Shown here piece by piece: positions 14,641-48,551 of a DNA stretch of 64,000 bases. Location of the stretch: positions 31,909,001-31,973,000 of the forward strand of contig NC_133064.1 of the NCBI RefSeq assembly GCF_048771995.1, in the 5' to 3' direction. The notes below the pieces were generated by a model. The model did no database searches, had not been told where the DNA came from, and saw only the letters and a program-made list of their open reading frames with translations. How positions within the stretch are numbered: the stretch's first letter is position 1; each line of letters opens with the position of its first letter. The translations under genes were made by a program, and so were the position numbers. This DNA comes from Taeniopygia guttata (lineage: Eukaryota; Chordata; Aves; Passeriformes; Estrildidae).

Positions 14641-14759
14641 TATGGGAGACAACGAAGAGAGATCAGACTGCAGTAGAAGCCCCATCTACGCACCAGTGGC
14701 TGCAAGTGTTAAGACCCCCCAGCGAATGCTGTCCTCCTCGTATCTACACATCCCTTGGA

Positions 14760-16116: not shown

Positions 16117-17739
16117 GATAAGATCTTTCAAGGCATTTGATGACTACTAGGCACTTTATTAACAAAATGTAGCTTACCCTCTCCAGTACCTACTCTTTCA
16201 GTATTTTACAGTTTCAGTGACAGGGTCCTAAAAAGTATACACTTCATCTAAAGTCACTCTGAAGAAACTGTTTACTTCAAACCTTTATCTGCTTCAATGA
16301 TAGTTCAGTTTTCCAGACTCTTCTTTTGCTTGATGTAGATTATTAGCCACTTTGGATCATATTGATTCCTGGAATACAGATCCATTGAATTGCTGTCTGC
16401 GGCCAGTCTGTACTTGGACTGCTGCTTTTCAGTAAGAATATCTTTAGATATTCTTCATAAGAGAGTCAGCACTACCGGTCTCTTTCTGAGATACCAAAAA
16501 CTTTGTTATTCTACCTTAAGAAGATAATTCAATGTTCAAGACAGCAGTCGTTTTTCATAATTAACTAAAAATAGCAGTCCAGATCTAAGTAATGATGTAA
16601 GGGGCTGCAGCTCACAGTCCTAGGCACACCAGTGGTTAAGTGCTTTATCAAAATTTTATTTATGATTTTGTCAACACAAAGGTTTATCCAAGACTGAAAA
16701 AAAATTAAGAATCTCATATTCTATGTTGGGTTCCCCATCAAGGGAAATTCTATCAGTTCTGGTTTGAGAATCTCCCCTACCTCCCATCTTAACACTGATG
16801 TCTGCCCTTTGTGCTGCAAGATATTACGTAAGGCATATAGCAGAACATTAAAGTCATCCCGAAGAACCTGACAAATCCACAACTTATGTCAAATTTATGT
16901 TACTTAAAAACTTCCATGAAAGTCAAGTGGTTAGGAAAAATGAAGTTCAAAAGTTTACAGAAATATACACATTCATCAGGCAAAAAAATATTAGGGTAAA
17001 CTTACGACAGCCAAATCAGTATTAGTGATATAAGTCAGTATGACTCATTCTACATTATGAAATTTCAACTATCATTACCAAAGATACGTTCATGAAAGAT
17101 GAACAATATCATTCTTATTCGGTATAACAATCACTGGTAACTGGGTATACCTTCAGTACACCACTTCCTGTAGCTCCATGGTAACTTTAGGAGTTCCTTT
17201 CTTTCTAGGAACATTCTCCCAAAGTTTCAGTATATTCAAAGTTTGCTAAGTTGCCAATGCCAAAACAGAAAAAACTTCTGGACTCCTTTCATGGTTAAAG
17301 CTTCTTTAAAAGACTCAAGACCTAGATCTGGATCTCTGTCTTTTGATAATAGGAGTAAGCATGTGTATTTTAAACAATAACAACATGCTGTAGGACTACA
17401 TTTTTAAAAAAAAGTACAGTATGTATCTGTTTGCTTGACATAAGTAAGCAGCCTGTATTATAATTATCTTAGCCTCATGGAAGACATTACTATAGTACTT
17501 TTTGCAGTCTGTCTTGGTATCTGTAAAGATATACACCAGGGCAAACAATGAGACAAAAGCTGCATGATCAGAGCTGAAGCTTTGGGATTGTTTTCCCAAA
17601 TACCTTTTACATGGACAGATAGTATGCGATGAAGGAAGGAGAGTCAGATTCACTTCTACATTTCAGAGAGAAGTCCACATCTTCCACATTTTCAAAGGTA
17701 TACAGCAATCCTTTACCTACTGCTACATCAAGATGTGCA
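16117..17739. other. Intergenic DNA between FCHO2 and the palindrome
   Basis: About 1.6 kb of AT-rich sequence with no recognised repeat or gene. Just left of the palindrome edge there is a 44-codon minus-strand open stretch (about 17607-17738) that I could not identify; its length is within chance. Confidence 0.45.
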
Positions 17740-19694
17740 GCACTGAGGTGAGGCTGACTGACCTGTAGTTCCCTGGGAGTTCCTTATGTCCCTTTTTAAA
17801 AATGAGGTTTATGTGTCCCCTTTTCCAGTCAGGGGAAACTTCACTGGACTGCCATGACTTCTTAAATATCTTTAATATGATGGATATCCTTGGCCAGTTC
17901 CCTCAGGACCAGTGGATGTATCTTGTCAGGTCCCATGGACTTGTGCACCTTCAGGTACCCTAAATGGTTTCAAACCTGGTCTCAAGTCCCTGCTTTCATC
18001 TTCTGCAACTTGAACAGTGTATCTGGAACACTTGTTGATGAAGACTGAGGCAAAAATGTTGCCGAGTACCTCAGCCTTCTCCATGTCCTGGGTAACCAAG
18101 TCTCCCATATCCTTCCTGAGAGGACCCACATTTCCCCCAGTTTTTCCTTTATCTCTGATGTACCTAAAGAAGCTTTTTTGTTACTCTTGATGTCCTTGGC
18201 CAGGTTTAATTCTATCAGGGCTTTAGCTATCCTAACCTGATCCCTGACTGTTTGGACAATCTCTCTGTATTCCTCCCAGGCTACCTTTCCCTGCTTCCAC
18301 CCTCTGTAAGCTACCTGTTTGTGTTTAAGTTTGTCCAGGAGCTCCTTGTTCATCCACACATGTGTTCTTCCCTGATTTCCTCTGTTGGAATACATTGCTC
18401 TTGAGTCTGGAGGAGACAATCCTTAAATATCATCCAGCTCTCTTGGGCCCTTCTTCCCTCCAGGGCTCTATCCCACAGCACTCTATCAAGCAGATCCCTG
18501 AAGAGGCCAAAGTCAGCTCTCCTGAAATCCAGGACAGTGAGCTTGTTGTGCACCCTCCTTGCTGCCTCAAGGGTCTTGAACTCCACCATTCCATGGTCAC
18601 TGCAGCCAAGGCTGCCCTTGAGCTTCACATTCCCCACCGCCCCCTCCTTGTTGGTGAGAACAAGGTCCAGCATAGCACCTCTACTCATGGACTCCTCTTT
18701 CACTTGGAGAAGGAAGTTGTCATCAGCACATTCCAGGAACCTTATGGATTGCCTGTGCCCTGCTGTATCATCCCTCCAACAGATGTCAGGGTGGTTGAAG
18801 TCCCCCATGAGGACCAGGGCTTGTGAATGTGAGACCACTCCTATCTATCTGCAGAACTCTCATCAGCTCAGTCTTCCTGGTTGAGTGGCCTTTAGCAGAC
18901 CCCCACTATAATGTCACCTGTCCTTGCCCTCCCTTTAATCCTGACTCACAAGCTCTCAGTCAACTCCTCATCCATCCCCAAGCAGAGCTCCATGTACTCT
19001 AGATGGTCACTGACATAGAGGGCAACACACCCTCCTCATCTCCCCTGGGCTATCCTTCCTAAAGAGCCTGTATCCTTCCATTCCAGCACTCCAGTCATAG
19101 GAATCATCCCACCATGTCTCTGTGATGCCAATAAGATTATAGTCTTTCTCCTCCTGTTTGTTCCCTATGCTGCGTGCATTGGCATAGAGGCATTTATGTT
19201 GGGCCCCAGATGAAGCTTTCTGTCTTGGGTGGATGGAATTCCTTTGTGCTGCCCTTCAGGTTCTCTCCTGCTGACCTTTGATCCTTCTTCAGGCTCCAGG
19301 CATCTCCTGCTGGCTCCAGCATCCATCTACTATGAGTGAGATGGCATGCCATCCCACACCTTATCACTGTTAAACCTGATGATGTTCCCCTTCCCCATCA
19401 ATCTAGTTTAAAGCCCTGTCAATAAGCTCCGCTAGCTCTTGACCCAAGATCCTCTTCCTCCTTTGAGAAAGATTAATCTCATTGGAATCCAGCAAGCCTG
19501 CACCTAGAAGAACAGAGGAAAAAATAACCTGTGCTCCTACTTCCCTCACTAACCATCCCAAGGGCTTAAAGTCTCTTTTGATCACCCTTGAATTATGCTT
19601 TGTGACTTCATTGCCACTCACATGGAAGATAAGCAATGAATAGTAGTCCAAAGACCGAACCAGGCTAGGAAGTTTCATGGACTTCCTTTTTCTC
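17740..19694 (-). mobile_element. CR1 LINE, 5' half only (left-arm copy)
   Basis: Inverted copy of the first 1.95 kb of the CR1 at 39605-43275. It covers a degraded ORF1 end and the start of the endonuclease/RT ORF2, then stops dead at the palindrome edge. In the right arm the same CR1 continues naturally, so this is the derived copy. Confidence 0.9.
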
Positions 19695-19846
19695 TTAGTA
19701 ACATTTGAATATTAAACTGAGAAATTCAAATGGACATATGCAGAATCCAGCAGTTTATTGCTTACTGCATATGCTGCTAGTAAATAATGATCGTGTATCT
19801 ACTGTTTAATGATTATTTTTATTTCCCTCCCCCCTCTCATTTGTAG

Positions 19847-19989
19847 ATTCTTCATGGATTTAAAAATCAAGTCGGGGATGAGAATTGGAGGCGTTTCTCT
19901 GACCAGTTTCCTCTTCCCTTAAAAGAGCGCCTTGCAGCTTACTATGGAGTTTAGCCTTATGCATTGTGGCTGCAGTCCCACAATTAGAG
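19847..19989 (+). pseudogene. TNPO1: Inverted duplicate of the TNPO1 terminal coding exon
   Basis: An exact inverted copy of 39310-39452. It keeps the acceptor (TTGTAG before 19847), 35 codons ending YYGV, the stop at 19952-19954, 35 further bases and the donor GTAAGT (19990-19995). It lies on the plus strand, downstream of and opposite to TNPO1, with no upstream TNPO1 exon in this orientation, so it cannot be spliced into TNPO1 mRNA. It is an orphan exon created by the palindrome. A transcript across the plus strand could in principle use its splice sites. Confidence 0.95.
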
Positions 19990-20373
19990 GTAAGTACACA
20001 AATCTTCCTTGCTTAACAGAGCTGTATAACAAGTCTTCCTCCCTGTTTATATTATATGAAGCATAACTAATTCACTAGAATACAATTTTACTGATATGTT
20101 GGAACAGCTACCTTTCCATACACAAGATAAGGTTGGAAATGCAGGTGTAACAAAGTGCCTGTTTAATAAGCAAAATTATTATTATAATCCTCAAGCCATC
20201 ATGCTAAAGTAGCAGGCTCCCTTATGACTTATGAATTAGTAGATGGCTGTTGTAGTTGAAGGCAGGGATATTGACCTAGGATAGGAAAGCAACTTTGTTA
20301 AGACACTAGCAATGAGAAGTTAAATGCATTCATAACCACATACTATATTACCTTGGCATTGAATAAAGAATGT
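19990..20373. other. Copied TNPO1 intron sequence
   Basis: Left-arm counterpart of 38926-39309. Unique-looking AT-rich intron DNA, no other feature. Confidence 0.8.
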
Positions 20374-21173
20374 TATGTTAATCATAGAACAATAGAATAT
20401 CCTGAGTTGGAAGGGACCCATCAGGATCAAGTCCATGTCCTGGCCCTGCACAGGACACCCCAAGAATCATACCATGTGCCTGAGAACATTGTCCAAACAC
20501 TTCTTGAACTCTGTCAGGCTTGGTGCTGTGACCACTTCCCTGGGGAGCCCAACCACCCTCTGGGTGAAGAACCTTTCCCAAATATCCAACCTAAACCTCC
20601 CCTGACACAGCTTCATGCCATTCCCTTGGGTTCCGTCACCGGTCACTAGAGAGAAGAGGCAGTGCCTGCCCCTCCGCTTCCCCTCATGAGGAAGCTGTAG
20701 ACTGCAATGAAGTCTACCCTCAGTCTCGTCCAGGCTGAACAAGCCAGGTTACCTCAGCCACTCCTCGTATGACTTCCCCTCTAGGCCCTTTACCATCTTT
20801 GCTGCCATCCTTTGGACTCTCTCTAATAGCTTTATATCTTTCTTATATTGTGGTGCCCAAAACTGCACACAGGACTAAAGGTGAGGCTGCACCAGTGCAG
20901 AGCAGAGTGGAACAATCCCCTCCCTTGCCTGGCTGGCAATGCTGTGCCTCATGCATCCCAGGATACGGTTGGCCCTCCTGGCTGCCAGGGCACTGCTGAC
21001 TCATATTCAACTACCCATCGACCAGGACCCCCAGGTCCCTTTCTGCGGCACTGCTCTTCAGCCTCTTCTTCTCCTGTTTGTCTGTACATGTAGGGTTGCT
21101 CCATCACAGGTGCAGAATGTGGCACTTTTCTTTGTTGAACTTCATACAGTTGGTGATTGCCCAGCCCTCTCAT
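20374..21173 (-). mobile_element. CR1 fragment (left-arm copy)
   Basis: Inverted copy of the CR1 at 38126-38925. It includes the conserved CR1 3' region, and the 3' end faces left at about 20374. It differs from the right arm at 20878. Confidence 0.88.
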
Positions 21174-21423
21174 TTAATAATGAGTTCTACCAGCAACAAA
21201 GAGCTGCTCCTAAATTTTGCCTTCCCATATTCTGTATGCTGATCTTGTCATCTGTCTCTAAAGTAGCACATACTGAACAATCCTTACTAAGGACAATCCT
21301 ATTATGCACACTATTCCTTTTGAGACTGGGCTGGTTAAGAAAGTCCTAGATTACTGATTGCCTTACTTTAAGTGATGCTGGATATAAGAAGAGTGATATG
21401 ACATAAATATATATAATATAAAG

Positions 21424-21725
21424 AGAGAGCACAACTTTTTACATAGGCAGATAGTGAAAAGACAAGAAGGAATGGTTTTAAACTAAAAGAAGAGAGATTT
21501 AGATTAGAAGTTAAGAAGAAATTAATTACTCAGAGGGTAGTGTGCCACTGGAAAAGGTTTGCGCAGAGATGTGGATGCCCTATCCCTGGAAGGGTTCAAG
21601 GCCAGGTGGGATGGGGCTTGGAGCAACCTGGGATAGTGGAAGGTGTTCCTGCCCATGGTGGGGGGTTGGAACTAGATGATCTTTAAGGTCCCTTCTAACA
21701 CAAGTAATTCTGATTCTATTATAAC
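21424..21725 (+). mobile_element. CR1 3' fragment (left-arm copy)
   Basis: Short CR1 3' tail in plus orientation, ending with the usual GATGATCTTTAAGGTCCC-type segment and an ATTCTATTAT end near 21725. It mirrors 37574-37875. Confidence 0.85.
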
Positions 21726-22888
21726 ATTCTTTTCATTTAAGATGCTAGTACTTACTCTACTCATCTTGTTTGTATATAGAAGTAGTAATTAAGCTCAGAC
21801 TCAGGCCTGGGTCAATAGTCAGATGTTTTGTTCAAGTTCCCCCTTGACAGCAGCATGCTCCAACACAAGTACCCCATGACAGAATGGGAGTGGGGAGGGC
21901 TATTTGAATGAAGACAAAACAAAAACTACACCCTGCCTTCCCAGTCACTGGTTTACTCATGTCTTATAGCCAACAGGAACTGATCTCTTTTCTAATCAGC
22001 TCGGTCTCTACACACTTACTGTGCTGCCAACATCTATTCCATGGTCTTCTCTTTCTGGAGGCAGAAATCAAAGTCCTTATTTAAGCAGACTTTCAGCCAA
22101 ATATGCAGCAACTAATTTCTACTATACATTTTATTATGAATTTACTCAGTAGTTATATCATGATAATGTATTTTATTGAATTTGTTACAATACAGAAGGT
22201 CCCTATGCTAGACATGTAGTTGTCTAGATTGTTTATATGTTATTGACCAACTGTAAATAATGGAAGCAAATATAAACAATCACATTGACATGGGTAAATT
22301 TTGTACAGGGAGCTACTACTGTTAGTTTCATACTTTCATTTTAGAGACTCCTGTATCAAGAAGTTAAATAAGTTTAAGAACAGACCTTTAAACAGTTAGC
22401 ATTATCACCCCATAAAAGCTAGATAAAATTAGAATAAGACCATTGCAAGACTTGGTTCAAGGTCTTGAATAGTTTTCATTTAGTTTTAGCTTATTCAAAT
22501 TTTTACTCAACTATTGACAAACACAAGTAATGAGAATGACACCACAAGGCCCCATTGAGAGGTGAGAACAATATAACACCATACATCTACTCAATAAGTG
22601 AGCAGCAGAGGAGGATGGGACCATAAATTTACCAAACAAGGAGATAATGCAGGAACAAACTATTGATAAGACCAAACAAGTCTTTGGCTTGAACTTTTGT
22701 GCTAACTTTAGTCAGATAACCAGCATAGCAAAATTCACATCTATAGAAGCCACTTACTCACATAAGCTCCTTCCCTATAGAGCATGTGTGATAAAATAAA
22801 TGGGTACTGTGTCTTTAAGTGAAAGTGAAAAAATATTTAGCCAATTGTGATAGTTTCAGTTCAAAACTGTGCAGAAACACTAATTTTG
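21726..22888. other. Copied TNPO1 intron sequence
   Basis: About 1.15 kb of unique-looking AT-rich DNA, mirrored at 36411-37573. No gene or repeat recognised. Confidence 0.7.
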
Positions 22889-25725
22889 TGTAGTGGTTTT
22901 GGTTTGTTAATTTAAGATTTTATTTAAGTTTAAGATTTCTCGGATAATGCACTAAAGAGTGTGGTGGGTTTTGGTGTTGGTTAATCACTAATTGTCGGAA
23001 CTCAAAATGTCCCTCAGACATTTTCAGAGGTTCCAGGCCTTGGTCAGAAGCATTTTAGACCCTGGCAAGCAGCTGAAAACAGCTGTGATTTTGAGTTTGA
23101 GCCATGGAATGAGTTACCAACTTTGAAGGTGGAACAAGCGGTCACAGAGGGTTAGATGGTATAGTAAAAGTAGTTACAAATTAGAGGGGAAATTTTTTTT
23201 GTATTGTACAGGGGGGTTTTAACACCTGTACAGGGGGGTTTTACTTTGTACAAGCGGATCAGGAGTTCTAAGATGGAGGAAATTGGGCCTGATCCTGTTC
23301 TTCCTCCTTCTTCTTCTTTGCCTCCATGTTCTTGGTGATGTTGGCACTCACAGATTGGTTTAGAGTAGAAAAGCACGTTGTAACATAGATAGTAGGCACT
23401 GGGGAAAATCTGTAAACATATAATACGTAATATATCATATAAAAGATAGCAGCAGCCCTGGGCGGGGAGAGAGACGACGAAGACACCGGACAGTGAGGGT
23501 GTCAGGAGTGTGTGTGTCTCTGCCTGGGCCGCTGACCAAAGCAGCCGCAGCGGGCGAAGACAATCTTTTAGATAGCTAGCCATAAACTGCCTTGGGACCG
23601 AACAACAAGAGGCTGCAGAGTTTTTCTTTGGAAGCACAGGTTGGAGGAGAGACTTTACCACCACACGAGACCCCTGAATCAATCCCGGGGTTCTCACAAC
23701 TAATGTACTTCCTGCTGTGAGATAGGATTAGGAGAAAGGTAAAGTAGGTTTAAAACTTTAAAAGGGTGTAGGAGTGACAGTCGGGACGGACGGAGACGAG
23801 AGATCTCTGAAGCCAGGTTTTGGAACTTGCGGTTTATTGCAAAGGGTGTGGGTGCAGGGGCCCTGTTTGGAGCTGCCAGCCGCAGCTCTGAGAAGGCCTG
23901 AAAGAGGAGCCTGAAAGAGAGACCCAACAGAGCAAGAGGGCAAGAGAGGGGCAAGGGAGGCAAGAGAGAGAAGTTCCCGTTACAATACAATAAATCTTCT
24001 GTGCTGAATACAAGTACAAGATACAAATCCTATAACATTTACATACAGCCTATAAGAATCATTACATTCCCATACTGTGTTACATTTTAAACCCTAAAAA
24101 CTACTCTTTGGACCCCTTCTGCCAAGCTACTTGGGTCTGCTCTGACCCTTGGACCTGTCTGCAAGCAGAGGGTATTGTTTAATCAAAAGGGGATTACCTT
24201 CAGCTGGCCATACTATTGTTTTCCAGTTGATCAATAACTAAGGCTTGGTATCTCAAAGCTTGCTTTCATTTCAATCTCGCTTGTAGTTTCCATATTCTCA
24301 AAATCTTTTGCCAGGCAATCATATTTATAAGGCTTTCCTGTTTCATCTTCCCCAACAAAAGGGTATAAATAAAATTTTATAAACAGTAACTAAAATAAAA
24401 AAGTAGTAAGAATCAAGATAAATCTTTCAGAACACTTCTTCTCACAACCTTTTCTTTTCTACTGACAATGTAAAGAAACAAAATTTTCAGTCAGTTTATG
24501 ACTTCTAAAATAGTCCTTTTTTCAGTTTACTTAGAGAGAGAAATCTTTCTTGTTAATGTTATGGAGACTTCTCTATAAGAGGAAAAACTGGTTTTTTGTG
24601 GTTCTCAACTTGGTCATGAATAGCAGATGCCCGGGGAAAATCTGCTATTGTGAAGTATCTCCCATTTTCTGCAAGCCTTCCCACAGCTTGTTTATGGGCT
24701 ATGTCAACTTATGGGGTATTGTTTTAAAGATGAGTTGGTCAAAGCTAAAAGTTCTCATTATCTATATTTAAAATTATCTTTATCTCTGGGAACAGAGATC
24801 TTCTCTTGGGGGTATAGGACTACTTTTTCTCTGTTGAAACTTCTCATGGGATCACAGCTACTTTAACATCTCTTTACTTTGCATGGAGGCCTTTGCTTGA
24901 TATAAATTTGAACTTTTCATATTTTCATAGTTTCATGTGTTATAGGGAAAAGAGTTTTTTCTCTATAGCTTACAAGAGGATTTCAGCTCTAAAATCAAGG
25001 CATCTCTTCATCCGTCTTATCTGGGACTTAACTTTTTTCTCACTGACTATGATGTCTTCATGTTCTTTTACATGTTTGTATCTTGTTCTTTTCTCTTACT
25101 TGAGGGAGGATTGAAGCACTGAAAGGGTTAGCATTTTGTTTGAAGCTTGTAGATGGTCAACTTGACCCCGGTGGCTGGGTGTTACAGACGGTGGGAGCTG
25201 CAGCTGGGGGGGTGGCTCGGATCTAATTAGCTAGGCTAGAACCTAGTAGCACCAGCACTCTGTGTGTGTGTGTGTGGGGGGTGGCTTCTCCTTCCCCCGG
25301 CCTGATGGTTGCGGGTAACTTCTATGGGGGTAAAATCTCAGTGCTGACCTGGGGCTGCTCTCGGGGCCCAGCAGACTCGGCTGGGCCTCGTGCTTGGAGG
25401 GGTTTTAGTAAGCAGCTAGATGTTAGTAAGGCTGGTTCTATCTGGCCCTATGGTACCCCTCTCTCCTTGCCTGGTAGCTGATGGGGGGGTCAGCAGACGG
25501 TCCAGGGGAAAGGGGGCCCAGCTCCGCTGCAGGGCCGTCTACCCCGACCCCCTGTGGCAGGGGCCGCCTAGCCATGTGATTTTGCTCCCAGCTGGAAGGG
25601 AAAGAGGAAGATCCTGGGTTTCTTTCGTCTTTTAACATGTGTTTTTCACAGAGGCGTGTCTAGCTTTCTAGTGGTTGGAAGTTTTGCATCACTTCTCTAA
25701 ATGTTTCTCATGCAAAACCATGACA
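22889..25725 (+). mobile_element. Repeat X, intact left copy crossing the inner arm edge
   Basis: One continuous element from TGTAGTGGTTTTGG (22889) to CAAAACCATGACA (25725). Its ends are inverted relative to each other. It is interrupted only by solo LTR-b at 22993-23698. The part up to 24671 lies in the palindrome arm and the part after it lies in the spacer, with no disturbance at the edge. The spacer part is GC-rich near 25190-25620 and contains a TG run near 25260. No TSD found. It is related to 9735-11452 and, diverged, to 32706-34627. Confidence 0.7.
22993..23698 (+). mobile_element. Solo LTR (LTR-b family) in left arm
   Basis: A 706-bp LTR from TGTCGG to CTCACA, flanked by a perfect 6-bp duplication ACTAAT (22987-22992 and 23699-23704). 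It is very similar to 2535-3237, but the polyadenylation signal AATAAA of that copy reads CATAAA here (near 23580). The long minus-strand frame (23152-23697) is antisense noise shared by all LTR-b copies. Confidence 0.92.
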
Positions 25726-26215
25726 CCAATGAATATAGTTTACATTGTTGCATATACTGGAGGTTATGATCTTTCAATGTTTGAAGTTTATGGAAGCGGG
25801 TAACTAGCATACTGAAGGTGTGCCAGCTTTGTGGATTCATCACCCAGCACCCATGTCTGTGCAGACATGAATTAAACAAATACCTTGACTGTGTGTGGAT
25901 AGGTTTCTTGCACACTGGGTAGAATCTATATTTGGGACAACATCCTCATTTGGCCAGATTTAGCTAGCTAGTCTCAGCTGTTTCAAACAAAAATATAGGC
26001 AAAGTAACTTCTCAGTAGTAGAGCAGTTACCAGTATCACCTCATGAACATTAATTTCAGTTCAGGCAAACCTCCTATGTCTACATTTATTGGCCCCAAAG
26101 CAGCATAAAACATCTAAACTGAACTGACCTTAACTTATCCAAAGATCATTTTCATTCACAAAAAATTAAAATCCTCCTTATTCAAGAGACTCCAGAACTT
26201 ACATGTGTGAACCAG

Positions 26216-26921
26216 TGTCCTAGGGTGACGTTATGGTGTTTGTATCTCCAATCCTGTGTTCTGTTTACGTTTGATATTATATTCTGTGCTTTCAGAACTG
26301 ACTCTGAAAGTGAAGGTTTGTTTTGCCTTGTTATCAGCTGGTTCACCTCCCCCCATTGTCGGCTGCCTAGAAAAGGCTAGGGCTGGCTGGCTGGCTTTGC
26401 TTTGCTTGCTTGCTTGCTTGGCTTGCTTGCTTTGCCTGCTTGCTTGCTTTGCTTGCTTCTGCTTTTGCCTTTGCTTCCTAGTTAGTTTAGCTAAGCAGTC
26501 CAATTCTTTCCCTGGACTGTTGCTTTTTCCTTTCCTCTTCCTGAATACCATCCAACCTGCTCCGGACTGGGATCTGGGAAACACCAAGGAACACCAGGAG
26601 CCTGCATGTTGTGATCTGCAGCAGCCATCCCCAGTGCTGGAGAGCAACCCCCAGAGTCCAGACCCGGGCGACCACTCCCAGGAAGGACTTTCTGGATTTG
26701 TTCATCTCTTCAGAGTGGTGAAAGAGTTTTGTTGTCATCTGGTGTTGTTAATTGTTTTGGTGCTGGGGAGTGCTTTGTTCGTTGAATAAACAGGTTCTTT
26801 TCCACTTCTCTCTCAGAGGAAATTTTTCCTTGAACCAGGTGGGTGGGGAGGGGCCGTGGGGGTTTATTTCCTGGGGGCTCCTTTCAGAGGGTTTTCCCCA
26901 AATTTGCCCTAAACTAGGACA
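26216..26921 (+). mobile_element. Solo LTR (LTR-h), ERVL-like
   Basis: A 706-bp LTR with inverted ends TGTCCTAG and CTAGGACA and a perfect 5-bp duplication ACCAG (26211-26215 and 26922-26926). A 5-bp TSD is the ERVL/ERV3 norm. AATAAA is near 26784. A degenerate CTTG/GCTT tetranucleotide stretch (26385-26470) lies in its U3. It sits about 80 bp beyond the presumed distal end of the TNPO1 3'UTR. Confidence 0.92.
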
Positions 26922-27019
26922 ACCAGAAGAGTACCTACTGAGTCAGACAAAACACAAGCTGAACATGACATTTTCATCTTTCATCAAATATTGGAATGCA
27001 ACATATATAGTTTAACAAC

Positions 27020-27025
27020 TTTATT
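27020..27025 (-). promoter_or_regulatory. TNPO1: Candidate distal poly(A) signal of TNPO1
   Basis: AATAAA on the minus strand close to where the transposon-free stretch ends and the LTR-h region begins. Chosen by position; many other AT-rich sites exist between 27 and 32 kb. Confidence 0.35.
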
Positions 27026-30000
27026 AACATAGTCAAGCAGTGATTGGCATCCACATCTATTATGTCACATCATACAAATGTAGATACAAAATTACTACAG
27101 TACAATATATATGCTCTGCATGATTCAAAATGTTTGGTGGCCCCAAAAGCTCTAAAATTCAGCAGCTTATCAAAAATTAAAACAATATTCTATTTAAATG
27201 AAGTTCTGTTAGCAAATAGGCAGACTTCAAGAAATATCACTCAATTTAGTACAGTTTGAAAGGTTGCAGGAGGATATGTTTGAAGGATACATTCCAACAT
27301 TGTGGCAGACACAGAAACATCAGTTTTAAAGCTTTCAAGCAAAACTCATACAACCTAAGTTGTCAGCAGAAAGATCAGTCATCTTTAATTTTAAATTATT
27401 TTCTATACTGCATCCAATTGAAAATGTTAGAAGTGCTCAGTATTAATAAGTCAGCAATACATAGCTACCTATTTCTTCCCATGAAAAAAGAAAGTATTAC
27501 AGTGAAGATTTCAACAGCCAGAGAAACCTGCTTATACCCATCTTTTTTTTCCTAATCTCTTTCCCACAAAGATCACCTAGGCCTTCTCAGTTTTGTTGTT
27601 CACCCAAAGTAAGGAATTAGATACCTTAGGTGAAAGTAGCATAATAGAACCAGCTTATAGGAAAGTGATATACTATAAGCACTGAATTCTTTGAGATGCG
27701 GACTTGACTTACTTAAAAAGGATAGTCTAACAGCAGACAGGGATCCAGCTTTCATGGAGACATTTTAACTGCCCTCACAAATACATTCAAGTAAGTATCC
27801 TTATTATTTTAGGAGAATATACTCTACAAGGCAAGCAACAAGAGTATTCACCTCAGAGTCTTCCATTTAAACTGATTTTCCAAAACTGGCTTGCTCCAAC
27901 CATTACATGCAAAGAGCAAGCATCAGTGTCAGCCCCAAAAAAGTAGACTGATGGTGCAAGTCATTCTGGTGAATGCATAGGTGAGTGAAATACACAGCTA
28001 CCAATCAAGCTTTATTTACTCAACATGAGGTTACTGGAAATATGTAATATATCACAAATATGTATGCAAACCATATCAGCATCTACCTGAAGTAACTGCA
28101 GGATGTTTTGTAATTTATAGCAGTCATTTCACTGTAGAGCTTAACCTTTATCTAAGATAAAAAGTTACTCTTTAGACCCTATGTAGAAGCTTTATGCATT
28201 TATGCTCATAAAAGAGAGAGCATCAAAGCAATTCATCTTAATTTGCAACTTCTTTCGGCAGCAAAATCTGAAAGAAAATATTTCTAACACAATGTTACTT
28301 AAAAGCATTTTTCAAGAAATATTTCAGTTGTTTGAATATGGATGCATTCTCCTCAAGGGAAGAAGATTTTTGCACTTTTATCTGCTAATACATTCAATAT
28401 GAATAAAATAGGTGAAGCAAAAGTCATTATTGTCTAACAGTAGAAGGTTAATTTAGAGTAAGTTTAAGACAGAGCTCCATAATATGAAATACATAAACTG
28501 ATATAATTGACACGTTTTTATAAGCATGTGTTCTGAACAAAAAGGGTACAAGAGTATTCACCTGAGATAAAGCTAATATTTGAATATTTCTAAGTAGCAA
28601 TGAGTTTCACTTGAGTAAAACTACTTGAAGTTTTTAAATATACATTTTATTATTATACAATATATGCAGTATAAGTAAATAAAATTGATGTTTACATAAA
28701 AGTTCTAAATAAAACCCCACCAAATCCACAGTGTATCACCAATTCTAGTTACAAAACTTATGCTGCTTCATAACTTTTAAAAATTATAATTATTATAAAT
28801 TTTAAACTCATTCTTCCAAAACGGATCTTTTGAGTACAAGCTTTAAGGAACAATAAACCAAAGCATAAGAATTAGCTCATTACAGTTTAAATATATACAT
28901 ATTCACCAATTTAGAATATAATCAAGCTTTGGAAAAAAAATTATAAAATTTATTATATTTTATTGTCCTCTTAGAATAATGAATCTTCTAATAAGTTTTT
29001 CCCAAATGAAAATAGTTGTTTCCTGAATATATAAATAAAAAGAATTTAGTATTGAACATATAATTTCACAGCAATTTAGAACTGCCAAAAAGATGTATTT
29101 TATAAGGATTTTAAATACCCTTTCTGTTATCAACTTAGGTTGATCAGCAGCTTTTCTTCACTCTGAATCCTTCAAAAAGGTAAATGTAAAACAGAAAAAA
29201 GACATATATGAAAAACAGTAAACACTGACCTCCTGAGGCTCCTACAACAAAACTATTCAAGTAGAAAATCTACACCATTACTTAGCAGCTGCTATTTTGT
29301 AGCTTAGCAGACTAACAGCCCTTTATTCAGCGTGAAAGGAGCAAATGAAGCCGTACTTTTATCATGCCAAGAGGCAGAAATACTGGAATGTAACAAACTC
29401 ACAATTCTACCAATATGAACATTCAGTCAACATTCAAGAACTTTCAAGCCTACACTACGAGAATTGAAATGCTTTTTATTTATCCCATGATGCAATAATT
29501 GAATTATAACTGTTAATGCTGATTCAGAACTTTTCTTGCCTCAGATTAGACTCGAAATGGTTTCTGCCAATCTCTGCACTATACTATGCATTAGGAATAT
29601 AGTTTATCCGCTTTAAAATATACCACAAGGGAACTTACTGATACAACAGACTATTCTGTCAGTACTGTTTATTTCTGCCTTAATTATTTTCTTTGCTGTT
29701 ATACTAGATCAGTTCATATCTGTACAAATACCTATTAAAATACTATGTACAAAAGCGGTATCCTATGGTAATGTGAGGTGAAGTGGATTTATTTGGTTAA
29801 AGGGGCTTTCTGAAATTTAAACAGGTTAGTTAAACCCAGATTCTAGCTGTAATGCTACAGTATTATTTAGGTAGCTTTTCTATTCTACAGTTTGTTTTAA
29901 TGTCATTTCTCTGAAACTCTTCCCTAATGTTCAAATGCACTCAAAACTATAGCTAATTTGTGTCTAAAATAATATCCTACTGTTTTTTTTTCTTCTTAGA

Positions 30001-32038: not shown

Positions 32039-32044
32039 TTTATT
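32039..32044 (-). promoter_or_regulatory. TNPO1: Proximal poly(A) signal of TNPO1
   Basis: AATAAA on the minus strand in the context CACAATAAAGG, about 355 bases into the 3'UTR exon. It would give a short-UTR mRNA. Confidence 0.5.
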
Positions 32045-32705
32045 GTGCGTAAAATAGTTTTACTCTTTATGCATCCCTATGGTTCAATTATATGGTTCTT
32101 AGTTTGGTAGAATTCCCCAGAATAATCCAGAATGTGCTGTTTTGTTAATAGACTTTTTTTTCTTCTTCACATCCAGTGCAGAGTTGTAATAGGAGACTAT
32201 TTCCACCGACAAAGGCTCCAGATGTTAAAACATTTCCCAACATCGACTTAATACAGTGACAGCAACACCTCCCTCCCACCCCTCCCAGTAGGGTTGGGAC
32301 TGTACTGTATTCCCTACTGGTTTACCCTTCCCCCCAGTAAAGGGTAACATTTTCCCTGGGTGCAGAGTCTCCCTCATAGTCTCCCAGACTGAAGGACCTG
32401 TAAAAGGAAAAGACAGAAGTATAGTTAAATCTTATCTTGAACCTTAACTGACAGATCAGTGCATAAACAAAGAGCTTTTTGCCTTTTTTAAGGGGCAGGT
32501 GCCAAACTTTAATACAAAAACAAATTTAAGCCTAGATCTTCCCTTTTAAGAAAAGAGCCCATTTGTACCAAATAAATTCATTAAACAACACCATTTACTT
32601 TAAAGCTAGACTGACAATTCCACTATTGTGGCTTAGATTTAAGATAAAAGCAGTCCTATATATTCTAACAGGCTTGTGCCTTTTTAGTACAAGATTATGA
32701 GGTAA

Positions 32706-34627
32706 TGTGGTGGTTTTGAATGAGAGGCATTTACGGAAGTGATGCAAAGATTCCTGCCACTAGGAAGCTGTCCACGCCTCTGTGAAAAACACATGTTAAA
32801 GACGAAAGAAACCCCGAGAACTTTCCGTTCAGGCGACCAGGTAATACAGCCGGCCCAGCCCCTGTCTCGACCAGGCTGGGTCCTGATGGCCCCTTCCGCG
32901 GGGCGCCCGCTGGGCCCCCGCCATTAGCTACCGGGCCGGGTCATGGCTGTGATTTCTAACATCTTGCTGCTGGGCCCTGCCCGGCCGCCAGCCCGGGACC
33001 GAGCTGAGTCTGCCGGCCCCAAGGAACAGCCCCGGGCCGGGCGGGCTCGGCCAAAATTCTACCACAACCACCGGGCAGGGGAGAGGAGAAAGCCATCAAT
33101 TCCCCATTACCCGCCCCCCCCCCCCCCCCCCCCCGGCTGCAGCTCCCGCTGCAAGCTACCAAACCCAACTGGGGCGAGATATTAACTCTTTCAGTACTTC
33201 AATACTCCCTCGAGTGAGAAAAAAAACAAAATGCAGACAATATAGAAGAACAAAATGAAAACACTGAAGTCAATGAAGAAATAGTCAAGTCCCAGATGGG
33301 AGGGATGAGGAGATTCCTTCATCTTGGGGCTGAAATTCTCTTATAAGACTATAAAGAAAAACTTTTTCCCTATAATGCATGAAGGTATGAGGAGATAAAA
33401 GTGTTCAGATTGCAAATATCGAACAAAAAGCTCCATGCTAAGTAAGCAAATGTTAAAGTAGCTGTGTTCCTATGAGAAGTTTGAACAGAGAAGGAGAAAA
33501 GAGTGATGAAAATCCTGTGCCCCCAAAAAGAAAGTTGAAATAAAGATTTTTGGAGTTCACTTGAACTAACAAAACAGATTTAACTTTTAGCTTGTAGAAT
33601 CATGTGTTGAATTTTAAGAAACCTCTGCCATGGTACAAAGGGCATAGGGAAATGTAAATCTTTGAAGCTTCCTGCATAAAAGACAATACCGGAGAAGACC
33701 AGGGAATGCAAAGAACCCAGACAAAGAGACCTCTCAGTCTCCAACCATGTCAAGGCTAACAGACATACTCAGATAAGACACCAAAGGACCAAAAGCGCAT
33801 GCACAGAGGAGGAAAGTTCAAAAGTTCAATCCAGAGAAAGACTACAATTTTCAGCCTCAGAAGACCACCAGAGACCCCCGCGGGACCACCACAGCAAACC
33901 ACGCATGCCCAGAAGGGCGTGGACCTATTTAGCATGAGAGGCTAGGAGAGGCGGGTCCAGGGGTTGAATATGCATAGAAAAGTTGTGTAATGTATTGCAT
34001 ATGGAACACCTTTGTGAATAAAGATGTGGGACAGACTGCAGCTCGGGGCACAAGTTTTTGGAGAGCTATCTCGCTTGTGCCGGGTGCTGACATACATACC
34101 CACTTCATAACTACATCGAGTTGTGGAGTCTATTTATTTATTCCGCATATAGTTTCAAAGTGATTTCAGAAATAGATAATAAGCACCTTTGCCTTTAAAT
34201 AACTCATCTTTAAAACAGTACCCCAAAAATTGACATAGACCATAAACACAAGTATGAGAAAAACTTGTAGAAAATGAAAGGGATTTCACAAGTGCAAATT
34301 TACCCAGGTGGATGCTATTCGTGATAATTGAAAGCCACGAGAAAACTTTTCTTGTGGAGAAGTCTCCATAACATTAACAAAAGAGACTTCTCTCCCTAAG
34401 TAAACTAAAGAAAGACTATTCTAAAAGTGATAAACTAAGTGAAATTTTAGGTTTTGTTTCTTTACATTGTCATTGAGAAATAAAAAGTTGTAGGGGAAAG
34501 AGAAGCATCCTGAAAGATTTGTTTTGATTCTTATTACTTTTTCTTTTAGTTACTGTTAATAAATTTCTTGTTATATGCTTTTAACGGTTGGAGCCTACTT
34601 TACCTTTCTCCTAATTTTATATCACAA
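32706..34627 (-). mobile_element. Repeat X family, diverged copy (Y), interrupted by LTR-c
   Basis: Inverted and clearly diverged relative of the X copy at 23713-25725. The outer end is TGTGGTGGTTTTG at 32706 on the plus strand. The GC-rich part is at 32820-33140, with a run of about 20 C near 33115-33134, then leader-like sequence. Its other end at 34627 stops in the middle of the element and is fused to the right palindrome arm. LTR-c copy 3 is inserted at 33536. Confidence 0.7.
33536..34157 (+). mobile_element. Solo LTR (LTR-c family), copy 3
   Basis: A 622-bp LTR, TGAAAT to GTTTCA, with 4-bp duplication AAGT (33532-33535 and 34158-34161). AATAAA is near 34017. It is absent from the corresponding place in the X copy at 24.7-25.1 kb, so it arrived after the copies separated. 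Confidence 0.9.
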
Positions 34628-36410
34628 CAGAAAATGGGAGATACTTCACAATAGCAGATTTTCCCCGGGCATCTGCTATTCATGACCAAGTTGAGAACCA
34701 CAAAAAACCAGTTTTTCCTCTTATAGAGAAGTCTCCATAACATTAACAAGAAAGATTTCTCTCTCTAAGTAAACTGAAAAAAGGACTATTTTAGAAGTCA
34801 TAAACTGACTGAAAATTTTGTTTCTTTACATTGTCAGTAGAAAAGAAAAGGTTGTGAGAAGAAGTGTTCTGAAAGATTTATCTTGATTCTTACTACTTTT
34901 TTATTTTAGTTACTGTTTATAAAATTTTATTTATACCCTTTTGTTGGGGAAGATGAAACAGGAAAGCCTTATAAATATGATTGCCTGGCAAAAGATTTTG
35001 AGAATATGGAAACTACAAGCGAGATTGAAATGAAAGCAAGCTTTGAGATACCAAGCCTTAGTTATTGATCAACTGGAAAACAATAGTATGGCCAGCTGAA
35101 GGTAATCCCCTTTTGATTAAACAATACCCTCTGCTTGCAGACAGGTCCAAGGGTCAGAGCAGACCCAAGTAGCTTGGCAGAAGGGGTCCAAAGAGTAGTT
35201 TTTAGGGTTTAAAATGTAACACAGTATGGGAATGTAATGATTCTTATAGGCTGTATGTAAATGTTATAGGATTTGTATCTTGTACTTGTATTCAGCACAG
35301 AAGATTTATTGTATTGTAACGGGAACTTCTCTCTCTTGCCTCCCTTGCCCCTCTCTTGCCCTCTTGCTCTGTTGGGTCTCTCTTTCAGGCTCCTCTTTCA
35401 GGCCTTCTCAGAGCTGCGGCTGGCAGCTCCAAACAGGGCCCCTGCACCCACACCCTTTGCAATAAACCGCAAGTTCCAAAACCTGGCTTCAGAGATCTCT
35501 CGTCTCCGTCCGTCCCGACTGTCACTCCTACACCCTTTTAAAGTTTTAAACCTACTTTACCTTTCTCCTAATCCTATCTCACAGCAGGAAGTACATTAGT
35601 TGTGAGAACCCCGGGATTGATTCAGGGGTCTCGTGTGGTGGTAAAGTCTCTCCTCCAACCTGTGCTTCCAAAGAAAAACTCCGCAGCCTCTTGTTGTTCG
35701 GTCCCAAGGCAGTTTATGGCTAGCTATCTAAAAGATTGTCTTCGCCCGCTGCGGCTGCTTTGGTCAGCGGCCCAGGCAGAGACACACACACTCCTGACAC
35801 CCTCACTGTCCGGTGTCTTCGTCGTCTCTCTCCCCGCCCAGGGCTGCTGCTATCTTTTATATGATATATTACGTATTATATGTTTACAGATTTTCCCCAG
35901 TGCCTACTATCTATGTTACAACGTGCTTTTCTACTCTAAACCAATCTGTGAGTGCCAACATCACCAAGAACATGGAGGCAAAGAAGAAGAAGGAGGAAGA
36001 ACAGGATCAGGCCCAATTTCCTCCATCTTAGAACTCCTGATCCGCTTGTACAAAGTAAAACCCCCCTGTACAGGTGTTAAAACCCCCCTGTACAATACAA
36101 AAAAAATTTCCCCTCTAATTTGTAACTACTTTTACTATACCATCTAACCCTCTGTGACCGCTTGTTCCACCTTCAAAGTTGGTAACTCATTCCATGGCTC
36201 AAACTCAAAATCACAGCTGTTTTCAGCTGCTTGCCAGGGTCTAAAATGCTTCTGACCAAGGCCTGGAACCTCTGAAAATGTCTGAGGGACATTTTGAGTT
36301 CCGACAATTAGTGATTAACCAACACCAAAACCCACCACACTCTTTAGTGCATTATCCGAGAAATCTTAAACTTAAATAAAATCTTAAATTAACAAACCAA
36401 AACCACTACA
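34628..36410 (-). mobile_element. Repeat X head (right-arm copy), truncated
   Basis: Mirror of 22889-24671. Read on the minus strand it starts TGTAGTGG at 36410, contains solo LTR-b, and ends abruptly at the palindrome's inner edge. Confidence 0.75.
35601..36306 (-). mobile_element. Solo LTR (LTR-b family) in right arm
   Basis: Mirror of 22993-23698, with the same 6-bp duplication (ATTAGT at 35595-35600 and 36307-36312 on this strand) and the same CATAAA change. The insertion therefore predates the palindrome. Confidence 0.92.
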
Positions 36411-37573
36411 CAAAATTAGTGTTTCTGCACAGTTTTGAACTGAAACTATCACAATTGGCTAAATATTTTTTCACTTTCACTTAAAGACACAGTACCCATT
36501 TATTTTATCACACATGCTCTATAGGGAAGGAGCTTATGTGAGTAAGTGGCTTCTATAGATGTGAATTTTGCTATGCTGGTTATCTGACTAAAGTTAGCAC
36601 AAAAGTTCAAGCCAAAGACTTGTTTGGTCTTATCAATAGTTTGTTCCTGCATTATCTCCTTGTTTGGTAAATTTATGGTCCCATCCTCCTCTGCTGCTCA
36701 CTTATTGAGTAGATGTATGGTGTTATATTGTTCTCACCTCTCAATGGGGCCTTGTGGTGTCATTCTCATTACTTGTGTTTGTCAATAGTTGAGTAAAAAT
36801 TTGAATAAGCTAAAACTAAATGAAAACTATTCAAGACCTTGAACCAAGTCTTGCAATGGTCTTATTCTAATTTTATCTAGCTTTTATGGGGTGATAATGC
36901 TAACTGTTTAAAGGTCTGTTCTTAAACTTATTTAACTTCTTGATACAGGAGTCTCTAAAATGAAAGTATGAAACTAACAGTAGTAGCTCCCTGTACAAAA
37001 TTTACCCATGTCAATGTGATTGTTTATATTTGCTTCCATTATTTACAGTTGGTCAATAACATATAAACAATCTAGACAACTACATGTCTAGCATAGGGAC
37101 CTTCTGTATTGTAACAAATTCAATAAAATACATTATCATGATATAACTACTGAGTAAATTCATAATAAAATGTATAGTAGAAATTAGTTGCTGCATATTT
37201 GGCTGAAAGTCTGCTTAAATAAGGACTTTGATTTCTGCCTCCAGAAAGAGAAGACCATGGAATAGATGTTGGCAGCACAGTAAGTGTGTAGAGACCGAGC
37301 TGATTAGAAAAGAGATCAGTTCCTGTTGGCTATAAGACATGAGTAAACCAGTGACTGGGAAGGCAGGGTGTAGTTTTTGTTTTGTCTTCATTCAAATAGC
37401 CCTCCCCACTCCCATTCTGTCATGGGGTACTTGTGTTGGAGCATGCTGCTGTCAAGGGGGAACTTGAACAAAACATCTGACTATTGACCCAGGCCTGAGT
37501 CTGAGCTTAATTACTACTTCTATATACAAACAAGATGAGTAGAGTAAGTACTAGCATCTTAAATGAAAAGAAT
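36411..37573. other. TNPO1 last intron, unique-looking DNA
   Basis: AT-rich, mirrored in the left arm. No exon or repeat recognised. Confidence 0.7.
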
Positions 37574-37875
37574 GTTATAATAGAATCAGAATTACTTGTG
37601 TTAGAAGGGACCTTAAAGATCATCTAGTTCCAACCCCCCACCATGGGCAGGAACACCTTCCACTATCCCAGGTTGCTCCAAGCCCCATCCCACCTGGCCT
37701 TGAACCCTTCCAGGGATAGGGCATCCACATCTCTGCGCAAACCTTTTCCAGTGGCACACTACCCTCTGAGTAATTAATTTCTTCTTAACTTCTAATCTAA
37801 ATCTCTCTTCTTTTAGTTTAAAACCATTCCTTCTTGTCTTTTCACTATCTGCCTATGTAAAAAGTTGTGCTCTCT
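37574..37875 (-). mobile_element. CR1 3' fragment (right arm)
   Basis: Minus-oriented CR1 tail, with its 3' end at about 37574 (ATAGAATCAGAATTACT on the plus strand), followed by the reverse complement of the conserved CR1 3' block. 5' truncated. Confidence 0.85.
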
Positions 37876-38125
37876 CTTTATATTATATATATTTATGTCA
37901 TATCACTCTTCTTATATCCAGCATCACTTAAAGTAAGGCAATCAGTAATCTAGGACTTTCTTAACCAGCCCAGTCTCAAAAGGAATAGTGTGCATAATAG
38001 GATTGTCCTTAGTAAGGATTGTTCAGTATGTGCTACTTTAGAGACAGATGACAAGATCAGCATACAGAATATGGGAAGGCAAAATTTAGGAGCAGCTCTT
38101 TGTTGCTGGTAGAACTCATTATTAA

Positions 38126-38925
38126 ATGAGAGGGCTGGGCAATCACCAACTGTATGAAGTTCAACAAAGAAAAGTGCCACATTCTGCACCTGTGATGGAG
38201 CAACCCTACATGTACAGACAAACAGGAGAAGAAGAGGCTGAAGAGCAGTGCCGCAGAAAGGGACCTGGGGGTCCTGGTCGATGGGTAGTTGAATATGAGT
38301 CAGCAGTGCCCTGGCAGCCAGGAGGGCCAACCGTATCCTGGGATGCATGAGGCACAGCATTGCCAGCCAGGCAAGGGAGGGGATTGTTCCACTCTGCTCT
38401 GCACTGGTGCAGCCTCACCTCTAGTCCTGTGTGCAGTTTTGGGCACCACAATATAAGAAAGATATAAAGCTATTAGAGAGAGTCCAAAGGATGGCAGCAA
38501 AGATGGTAAAGGGCCTAGAGGGGAAGTCATACGAGGAGTGGCTGAGGTAACCTGGCTTGTTCAGCCTGGACGAGACTGAGGGTAGACTTCATTGCAGTCT
38601 ACAGCTTCCTCATGAGGGGAAGCGGAGGGGCAGGCACTGCCTCTTCTCTCTAGTGACCGGTGACGGAACCCAAGGGAATGGCATGAAGCTGTGTCAGGGG
38701 AGGTTTAGGTTGGATATTTGGGAAAGGTTCTTCACCCAGAGGGTGGTTGGGCTCCCCAGGGAAGTGGTCACAGCACCAAGCCTGACAGAGTTCAAGAAGT
38801 GTTTGGACAATGTTCTCAGGCACATGGTATGATTCTTGGGGTGTCCTGTGCAGGGCCAGGACATGGACTTGATCCTGATGGGTCCCTTCCAACTCAGGAT
38901 ATTCTATTGTTCTATGATTAACATA
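38126..38925 (+). mobile_element. CR1 fragment (right arm)
   Basis: Plus-oriented CR1 3' part, about 800 bp, with the typical words GGGCTGGGCAATCACC and TTCAGCCTGGACGAGA, ending GGTCCCTTCCAACTCAGG and TTCTATGATTA. It inserted in the TNPO1 last intron, antisense to the gene. Short open frames here are remnants or chance. Confidence 0.9.
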
Positions 38926-39309
38926 ACATTCTTTATTCAATGCCAAGGTAATATAGTATGTGGTTATGAATGCATTTAACTTCTCATTGCTAGTGTCTTA
39001 ACAAAGTTGCTTTCCTATCCTAGGTCAATATCCCTGCCTTCAACTACAACAGCCATCTACTAATTCATAAGTCATAAGGGAGCCTGCTACTTTAGCATGA
39101 TGGCTTGAGGATTATAATAATAATTTTGCTTATTAAACAGGCACTTTGTTACACCTGCATTTCCAACCTTATCTTGTGTATGGAAAGGTAGCTGTTCCAA
39201 CATATCAGTAAAATTGTATTCTAGTGAATTAGTTATGCTTCATATAATATAAACAGGGAGGAAGACTTGTTATACAGCTCTGTTAAGCAAGGAAGATTTG
39301 TGTACTTAC

Positions 39310-39452
39310 CTCTAATTGTGGGACTGCAGCCACAATGCATAAGGCTAAACTCCATAGTAAGCTGCAAGGCGCTCTTTTAAGGGAAGAGGAAACTGGTCAG
39401 AGAAACGCCTCCAATTCTCATCCCCGACTTGATTTTTAAATCCATGAAGAAT
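39310..39452 (-). CDS. TNPO1: TNPO1 terminal coding exon, in place (coding 39345-39452)
   Basis: The acceptor TTTGTAG precedes [14 protein letters not shown], and the exon ends the protein at YYGV with stop TAG at 39347-39345. The exon continues 35 bases to the donor GTAAGT (39309-39304), so the 3'UTR is split by an intron. Mammalian TNPO1 ends AAFYGV as I recall; here it is AAYYGV. It forms the last HEAT helix. A perfect inverted copy lies at 19847-19989. Confidence 0.97.
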
Positions 39453-39604
39453 CTACAAATGAGAGGGGGGAGGGAAATAAAAATAATCATTAAACAGTAG
39501 ATACACGATCATTATTTACTAGCAGCATATGCAGTAAGCAATAAACTGCTGGATTCTGCATATGTCCATTTGAATTTCTCAGTTTAATATTCAAATGTTA
39601 CTAA

Positions 39605-42600
39605 GAGAAAAAGGAAGTCCATGAAACTTCCTAGCCTGGTTCGGTCTTTGGACTACTATTCATTGCTTATCTTCCATGTGAGTGGCAATGAAGTCACAAA
39701 GCATAATTCAAGGGTGATCAAAAGAGACTTTAAGCCCTTGGGATGGTTAGTGAGGGAAGTAGGAGCACAGGTTATTTTTTCCTCTGTTCTTCTAGGTGCA
39801 GGCTTGCTGGATTCCAATGAGATTAATCTTTCTCAAAGGAGGAAGAGGATCTTGGGTCAAGAGCTAGCGGAGCTTATTGACAGGGCTTTAAACTAGATTG
39901 ATGGGGAAGGGGAACATCATCAGGTTTAACAGTGATAAGGTGTGGGATGGCATGCCATCTCACTCATAGTAGATGGATGCTGGAGCCAGCAGGAGATGCC
40001 TGGAGCCTGAAGAAGGATCAAAGGTCAGCAGGAGAGAACCTGAAGGGCAGCACAAAGGAATTCCATCCACCCAAGACAGAAAGCTTCATCTGGGGCCCAA
40101 CATAAATGCCTCTATGCCAATGCACGCAGCATAGGGAACAAACAGGAGGAGAAAGACTATAATCTTATTGGCATCACAGAGACATGGTGGGATGATTCCT
40201 ATGACTGGAGTGCTGGAATGGAAGGATACAGGCTCTTTAGGAAGGATAGCCCAGGGGAGATGAGGAGGGTGTGTTGCCCTCTATGTCAGTGACCATCTAG
40301 AGTACATGGAGCTCTGCTTGGGGATGGATGAGGAGTTGACTGAGAGCTTGTGAGTCAGGATTAAAGGGAGGGCAAGGACAGGTGACATTATAGTGGGGGT
40401 CTGCTAAAGGCCACTCAACCAGGAAGACTGAGCTGATGAGAGTTCTGCAGATAGATAGGAGTGGTCTCACATTCACAAGCCCTGGTCCTCATGGGGGACT
40501 TCAACCACCCTGACATCTGTTGGAGGGATGATACAGCAGGGCACAGGCAATCCATAAGGTTCCTGGAATGTGCTGATGACAACTTCCTTCTCCAAGTGAA
40601 AGAGGAGTCCATGAGTAGAGGTGCTATGCTGGACCTTGTTCTCACCAACAAGGAGGGGGCGGTGGGGAATGTGAAGCTCAAGGGCAGCCTTGGCTGCAGT
40701 GACCATGGAATGGTGGAGTTCAAGACCCTTGAGGCAGCAAGGAGGGTGCACAACAAGCTCACTGTCCTGGATTTCAGGAGAGCTGACTTTGGCCTCTTCA
40801 GGGATCTGCTTGATAGAGTGCTGTGGGATAGAGCCCTGGAGGGAAGAAGGGCCCAAGAGAGCTGGATGATATTTAAGGATTGTCTCCTCCAGACTCAAGA
40901 GCAATGTATTCCAACAGAGGAAATCAGGGAAGAACACATGTGTGGATGAACAAGGAGCTCCTGGACAAACTTAAACACAAACAGGTAGCTTACAGAGGGT
41001 GGAAGCAGGGAAAGGTAGCCTGGGAGGAATACAGAGAGATTGTCCAAACAGTCAGGGATCAGGTTAGGATAGCTAAAGCCCTGATAGAATTAAACCTGGC
41101 CAAGGACATCAAGAGTAACAAAAAAGCTTCTTTAGGTACATCAGAGATAAAGGAAAAACTGGGGGAAATGTGGGTCCTCTCAGGAAGGATATGGGAGACT
41201 TGGTTACCCAGGACATGGAGAAGGCTGAGGTACTCGGCAACATTTTTGCCTCAGTCTTCATCAACAAGTGTTCCAGATACACTGTTCAAGTTGCAGAAGA
41301 TGAAAGCAGGGACTTGAGACCAGGTTTGAAACCATTTAGGGTACCTGAAGGTGCACAAGTCCATGGGACCTGACAAGATACATCCACTGGTCCTGAGGGA
41401 ACTGGCCAAGGATATCCATCATATTAAAGATATTTAAGAAGTCATGGCAGTCCAGTGAAGTTTCCCCTGACTGGAAAAGGGGACACATAAACCTCATTTT
41501 TAAAAAGGGACATAAGAAACTCCCAGGGAACTACAGGTCAGTCAGCCTCACCTCAGTGCCAGGCAGGGTCATGGAGCAGATCCTCCTGGAAGCTACGCTA
41601 AGGCACATGAAAAACAAGGTGGTGATTGCTGACAGCCACCATGGCTTCACCAAAGGCAAAACAAGCCTAAAAAACTTGGTGGCCTTATATGATGAGGTTA
41701 CAGTAGTGGTAGATGAGGGAAGAGCAACTGACATCATCTACCTGGACTTGTGCAAAGCATTTGACCCTATCCCGCATGACATCTTGGGCTCTAAACTGAA
41801 GAGATGTGGATTTGATGGGTGGACCACTCAGTGGATAAGGAATTGACTGGATGGTCACACTCAAAGTGTGGTCAACAGCTCAATGTCCAAGTGGAGACCA
41901 GTGACAAGTGGTATCCTCAGGAGTCAGTGTTGGGACCAGCACTGTTTAACATCTGTGTCAGTGACATGGACAGTGGAATTGAGTGCACCCTCAGCAAGTT
42001 TGCCAATGACACCGAGCTGTGTGGTGGGGTAGATACACTGGAGGGAAGGGATGGCATCGAGAGGGACCTAGAGAGGCTTGAGAGGTAGGTCTGTGTGAAC
42101 CTCATGAAATTCAACAAGTCCAAGTCCCATTGCCCATGGGAATCACATGAGGTTTAATAAAAACAAGTGCTGGTGCTGCACCTGGATCAGGTCAACCCCT
42201 GGTATACAACAGGCTGGGGGGTGAACAGATTGAGAGCAGCCCTGCTAATAACAACTTGGGGGTGCTGTTGGATGAGAGGCTGGACATGAGCTGGCAATGT
42301 GTGCTTGCAGCACAGAAAGCCAATTGTATTCTGGGTTACATCAAGAGGTGTGACCAGCAGGTTATGGGAAGGGATTCTGCCTCTCTGCTCTGGTGAGACC
42401 CCACCTGGAGTACTGCATCCAACTCTGGAGTCCTCAGCACAGGAAGGACATGGACCTGTTGGAGCAAGTCCAGAGGAGGCCATGAAGATGATTAGAGGGA
42501 TGGAGCACCTCTCCTACAAAGATGTGCTGAGAGAGATGGGGTTGTTCAGCTTGAAAAAGAGAAGGCTTTGGGGTGACCTAATTGCAGCCTTCTGGTACCT

Positions 42601-48197: not shown

Positions 48198-48551
<354 letters not shown>

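Follow-up and report, generated by a model that had tools for sequence, protein, structure and literature searches.

How does a near-perfect palindrome come to lie at the end of a conserved gene? The question is raised by a 64,000-nucleotide stretch of DNA from Taeniopygia guttata (NCBI RefSeq assembly GCF_048771995.1, contig NC_133064.1, positions 31,909,001 to 31,973,000 of the forward strand), called the window below and numbered from its first letter, in which two long inverted arms enclose a spacer beside and inside TNPO1, the gene for transportin-1. Palindromes are believed to shield genes on chromosomes that do not recombine. According to the abstract of a study of the human Y chromosome, the mechanisms of their origin have received little attention so far (PMC6790999). 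A young palindrome with readable edges would show a concrete route, with the inversion coming first and the palindrome arising as a by-product. On balance, we favour such a route at this locus: the palindrome appears to be a real and recent inverted duplication that arose from one small inversion with staggered breaks. The original prediction had left three readings open, namely a very recent event, arm-to-arm gene conversion and an assembly fold-back; the recent event fits best, the fold-back fits badly, and gene conversion is possible, without positive evidence for it.

Results

Palindrome structure and arm edges

Self-alignment of the window with BLAST recovered the two arms as a single ungapped inverted match of 6,932 bp with 99.957% identity (17740-24671 against 41559-34628), in which paired coordinates sum to 59,299. 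The predicted arm length, spacer length and coordinate pairing were exact; the mismatches number three rather than the two first counted (left/right positions 17782/41517, 20878/38421 and 23617/35682), with no gaps. An inverted match of this length cannot be due to chance. The inverted arms, more than 99% identical, and the 9,956-bp spacer between them together form a palindrome of 23.8 kb. The spacer is mirrored solely by diverged copies of one repeat at its two ends, designated F on the left and F_R, in inverted orientation, on the right. Similarity ended abruptly at all four arm edges, with identity uniform up to each edge, and no diverged shoulders beside the arms were found by self-BLAST and edge comparison.

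Of the two edges of each arm, one is native and the other new, on opposite sides in the two arms. Positions 41559 (outer right) and 24671 (inner left) are native, and the new junctions are at 17739/17740 (J1, outer left) and 34627/34628 (J2, inner right). An open reverse transcriptase frame spans the outer-right edge, and its Pfam RVT_1 match extends to either side of that edge. The frame belongs to an element that we take to be related to CR1; the domains that Pfam itself assigns are limited to reverse transcriptase and endonuclease. Across 41559 the element remains similar to a second CR1-like copy at 62.4 kb, at 72% over 46 columns and, beyond the edge, at 59% over 80 columns. Outside the left arm, 17590-17739 aligned to the CR1-like sequence beyond 41559 with a chance-like local alignment score of 19, against 64 for a control CR1-like pair. 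At the inner-left edge, repeat F runs through uninterrupted, matching F_R at 82% of 303 columns on the arm side (24357-24671) and at 80% of 103 columns on the spacer side (24672-24774). At J2, no similarity to this left continuation was detected (score 19, against the control of 64). Comparison of the joint bases by eye revealed no homology or overlap at either new junction.

This division of the edges fits a one-event inversion with staggered breaks; had an inverted copy simply been inserted beside its source, both new edges would belong to the same arm. Two marks of such an inversion were found: an inverted duplicate at both ends of a segment, with one native edge per copy on opposite sides, and joints without long homology, as judged by eye and by flank-pair scores of 19 and 19. 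The ancestral order would have been FCHO2, the probable neighbouring gene, up to 17739, then the spacer in the opposite orientation, then the arm and the rest of TNPO1. One break would have fallen at 17739, adjoining F_R. The other would have consisted of two cuts 6.9 kb apart, one within repeat F and the other within the CR1-like element in the last intron of TNPO1. Rejoining of the 10-kb segment in flipped orientation and fill-in of the staggered ends would have left 6.9 kb at both segment ends, with the sequence between the offset cuts carried once by the flipped piece and once by the fixed side. TNPO1 would have kept its native last exon, and the left copy would have become an orphan exon. 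F and F_R, inverted to each other at the spacer ends, may have helped bring the breakpoints together. Staggered-break inversions in Drosophila have left duplications of 7.1, 4.3 and ~1 kb (PMC3355041), and the mechanism is also described in D. subobscura (PMC5080602).

The arm differences were polarised with paralogues in the window. At 20878 and 23617 the left arm carries the derived base, and 41517 is weakly assigned as derived in the right arm, from a distant paralogue and at a site three bases from the alignment end. In each case, read on the strand used for comparison, the derived arm carries A in place of G; together the three support mutations on both arms. Three differences (95% interval 0.6-8.8), with assumed rates between 1.0 and 2.3 per site in 10^9 years, would place the split of the arms ~94,000 to 216,000 years ago (interval 19,000 to 632,000), an age of the order of 10^5 years, if no gene conversion occurred. 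Recency explains the arm identity, and gene conversion is not needed for it because identity is uniform up to sharp edges.

Alternative histories

Several points weigh against a single staggered-break inversion. The flip of the spacer is deduced from the edges, and no repeat crossing the predicted ancestral joint (17739 to 34627) was found that would confirm the ancestral order. The CR1-like pair agrees only weakly beyond 41559 (59% over 80 columns), and the outer-right edge therefore rests mainly on the open frame and the RVT_1 match. Near the position at which F_R starts, its relatives read TGTTGTGAG, and part of the inner-right edge could therefore be the old end of a repeat. Furthermore, two-step histories, in which an inverted copy is followed either by a spacer flip through arm crossover or by a deletion, yield the same end product.

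The crossover history begins with an older inverted duplication on a sex chromosome, whose arms were kept identical by gene conversion; a later crossover between them flipped the spacer and produced the mixed edges. Palindromes are on record for the avian W: that of the white-throated sparrow shows signs of conversion (cited in PMC3403216), and the duck W carries 38 (PMC7787181). Arm recombination would indeed flip the spacer and give the observed edge swap. Nevertheless, the edges are sharp and lack diverged shoulders, more events are needed, and only three differences leave no power to test conversion; we regard this history as unlikely. In the deletion history, a longer block comprising the arm and an inner part was duplicated in inverted orientation, and the inner part was then lost on the right side between F and F_R. 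At the inner-right edge, two members of one repeat family are indeed joined in the same orientation, and by eye there is possible microhomology: a related copy has ATTTTTTG ahead of the position at which the arm has ATTTTCTG. Such a course takes two events, as well as an additional junction within the spacer that was not seen; we consider it decidedly improbable. An assembly artefact, whether a fold-back read, a misjoined haplotig or a chimeric contig, would explain the near-identity, which is typical of sequence duplicated in assembly. However, a fold-back should leave mirror halves that almost meet and a single new junction, whereas the arms here are separated by the full 9,956 bp and there are two new junctions, at which no overlap was seen by eye. 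The differences also polarise to both arms, a pattern that two alleles of a diploid region could mimic. We consider an artefact very unlikely, and the single staggered-break inversion is retained as the preferred origin.

Gene context and probable sex linkage

The 15 TNPO1 exons in the window encode the C-terminal part of the protein, the 5' exons falling outside it, and the visible part of the gene is intact. The fragment was identical to human TNPO1 at 573 of 594 columns, and transportin-1 in the PDB aligned to it over its whole length. As predicted, the palindrome includes a terminal exon: the right arm, whose outer edge sits in the last intron (39453-45867), carries the native last coding exon, and an identical copy stands in the left arm. 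Beyond what had been predicted, this left copy is an orphan outside TNPO1, and the edge pattern points to inversion. A 22-copy AGAA repeat (48204-48291) was observed in the intron after exon 48325-48400, ~33 bp from the splice donor.

On the other side of the left arm, a short frame probably represents exon 1 of FCHO2; the match is weak, its E-value of 0.05 being the lowest in a tblastn search with human FCHO2. The palindrome thus probably lies between the end of TNPO1 and the start of FCHO2, two genes that adjoin in human too. The left arm begins ~2.6 kb from the presumed FCHO2 start. Because the orphan exon, with its splice acceptor, is ~4.7 kb from that start and points away from it, a chimeric transcript is conceivable.

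The TNPO1-FCHO2 neighbourhood supports the predicted placement in the avian Z/W block. In flycatcher, the W gene table includes TNPO1W, and FCHO2 is among five genes called likely W pseudogenes (PMC4468903). The TNPO1 fragment differs from the Harpia protein at 6 of 590 aligned positions, plus three extra residues (DDN) in the acidic loop (61525-61699), of which Cercotrichas and Malurus carry one. Residue 368 of the fragment is Cys. When the motif around it was read by pattern, which was possible in 46 of 240 retrieved proteins, 43 had Arg and three had Cys. The three Cys368 carriers are all birds, namely a Pithys 'transportin-1-like' protein, a partial TNPO1 of Cercotrichas and a fragment from Anser cygnoides (goose) with several other changes, and we infer that these records may be W copies. 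Other observations count against W linkage. Arg368 is present in a Colius 'transportin-1-like' protein and in Malurus, which makes '-like' an unreliable label; Malurus has other residues in common with the TNPO1 of the window, Cercotrichas is without one residue common to Pithys and the window, and Arg to Cys is an easy change. The evidence for the W consists of one residue and a few records whose own Z/W status is presumed. From these protein comparisons, W linkage of the palindrome region seems fairly likely.

Repeat F belongs to an unnamed family of up to ~2 kb, with three whole or partial copies in the window, one at 9750-9951 and the two at the spacer ends. Two solo inserts resembling long terminal repeats (LTRs) lie in or beside this older repeat. 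The first has a paralogue at 2535-3238 (94.5%, self-BLAST), and the second is absent, by eye, at the matching point in the F copy at 9.9 kb and in F_R. The LTR-like repeat at 2535-3238 stands between separate retroviral open frames, with RNase H and integrase at 2-1348 and 1584-2153 and protease and dUTPase matches at 3282-3773. Diverged repeat copies (72-88%, self-BLAST) cluster at 4018-7724, and one more lies inside F_R (33536-34158). A run of 21 G on the minus strand (33114-33134), a possible sequencing trouble spot, was also seen within F_R in the spacer. The features are listed in Table 1.

Table 1 Features of the palindrome and its surroundings, in window coordinates
Feature	Position	Strand	Remarks
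Left arm	17740-24671	+	New junction on the outside, native edge on the inside; inverted match to 34628-41559, ungapped
Right arm	34628-41559	-	Part of native TNPO1 last intron, last exon and downstream sequence
Spacer	24672-34627		Probably inverted relative to the ancestral order, from edge analysis
New junction J1, outer left	17739-17740		Truncates CR1-like element; outside sequence unrelated
New junction J2, inner right	34627-34628		Arm copy of F cut, joined to 5' part of inverted F_R
CR1-like reverse transcriptase frame	41397-41843	+	Uninterrupted across 41559; Pfam RVT_1 residues 38-148 at 41508-41840
Repeat F, left copy	23705-25720 (start approximate)	+	Further F_R matches at 24827-25130 and 25616-25720
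Repeat F_R, inverted second copy of F	32711-34627	-	Interrupted by another repeat at ~33536-34158
Solo LTR-like insert in arm	22993-23698	+	ACTAAT direct repeats at 22987-22992 and 23699-23704 (by eye)
Second solo LTR-like insert in arm	23767-24357	+	AAAGGG direct repeats at 23761-23766 and 24358-24363 (by eye)
TNPO1, 15 exons	39345-62426	-	C-terminal 593 residues; one open frame and stop; 14 introns, all GT-AG
Native TNPO1 last coding exon with stop codon	39345-39452	-	In right arm; tblastn, splice sites, PDB match
Orphan copy of TNPO1 last coding exon	19847-19954	+	In left arm; identical to native exon, opposite direction, cut off from gene
Probable FCHO2 exon 1 (MMAYFVESFW)	15086-15115	-	GT after frame; CpG-rich stretch ~14751-15500, CpG observed/expected 0.91-0.97

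Discussion

A staggered-break inversion would by itself be a real but fairly ordinary start for a palindrome. A bolder proposal, which we offer tentatively and regard as doubtful, is that this is a passerine W palindrome near its birth, in which a staggered-break micro-inversion made the arms in one step and gave TNPO1W a backup last exon that later gene conversion could use. If this were true, staggered-break inversions would be a general seed for sex-chromosome palindromes. With arms able to pair, the 10-kb spacer is predicted to flip between individuals, and read-through of TNPO1 into the left arm would yield a long hairpin RNA. Among the titles listed in literature searches, none concerned a palindrome at TNPO1 or a sex-chromosome palindrome born from a staggered-break inversion, though either may exist in print.

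Among known systems, the CHD1W palindrome on the W of the white-throated sparrow, also a passerine, likewise places an inverted repeat at a conserved Z/W gene. It involves another gene, and gene conversion is reported for CHD1W, whereas none is shown at TNPO1. The CHD1W palindrome of Davis et al. 2010 is said to measure about 22 kb and to flank the 5' end. Sparrows and blackbirds are among the birds with documented W palindromes (cited in PMC3403216, PMC7787181 and PMC7692361). The 38 palindromes of the Pekin duck W are likewise repeat-rich inverted repeats, but they range from 15.2 to 345.5 kb and consist of nested repeats, whereas the palindrome described here comes to 23.8 kb in all and includes a gene end (PMC7787181). 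For palindrome P8 of the human Y chromosome, origin and change were likewise inferred from breakpoint structure; its arms are 38 kb long, and the routes considered were deletion by end joining and inverted and tandem duplication (PMC6790999). The staggered-break inversions of Drosophila likewise left inverted DNA of up to several kb at both segment ends, with partial gene copies (PMC3355041, PMC5080602). Those cases are whole chromosomal inversions, whereas the piece presumed to have flipped here is only ~10 kb, so that its two copies read as one palindrome.

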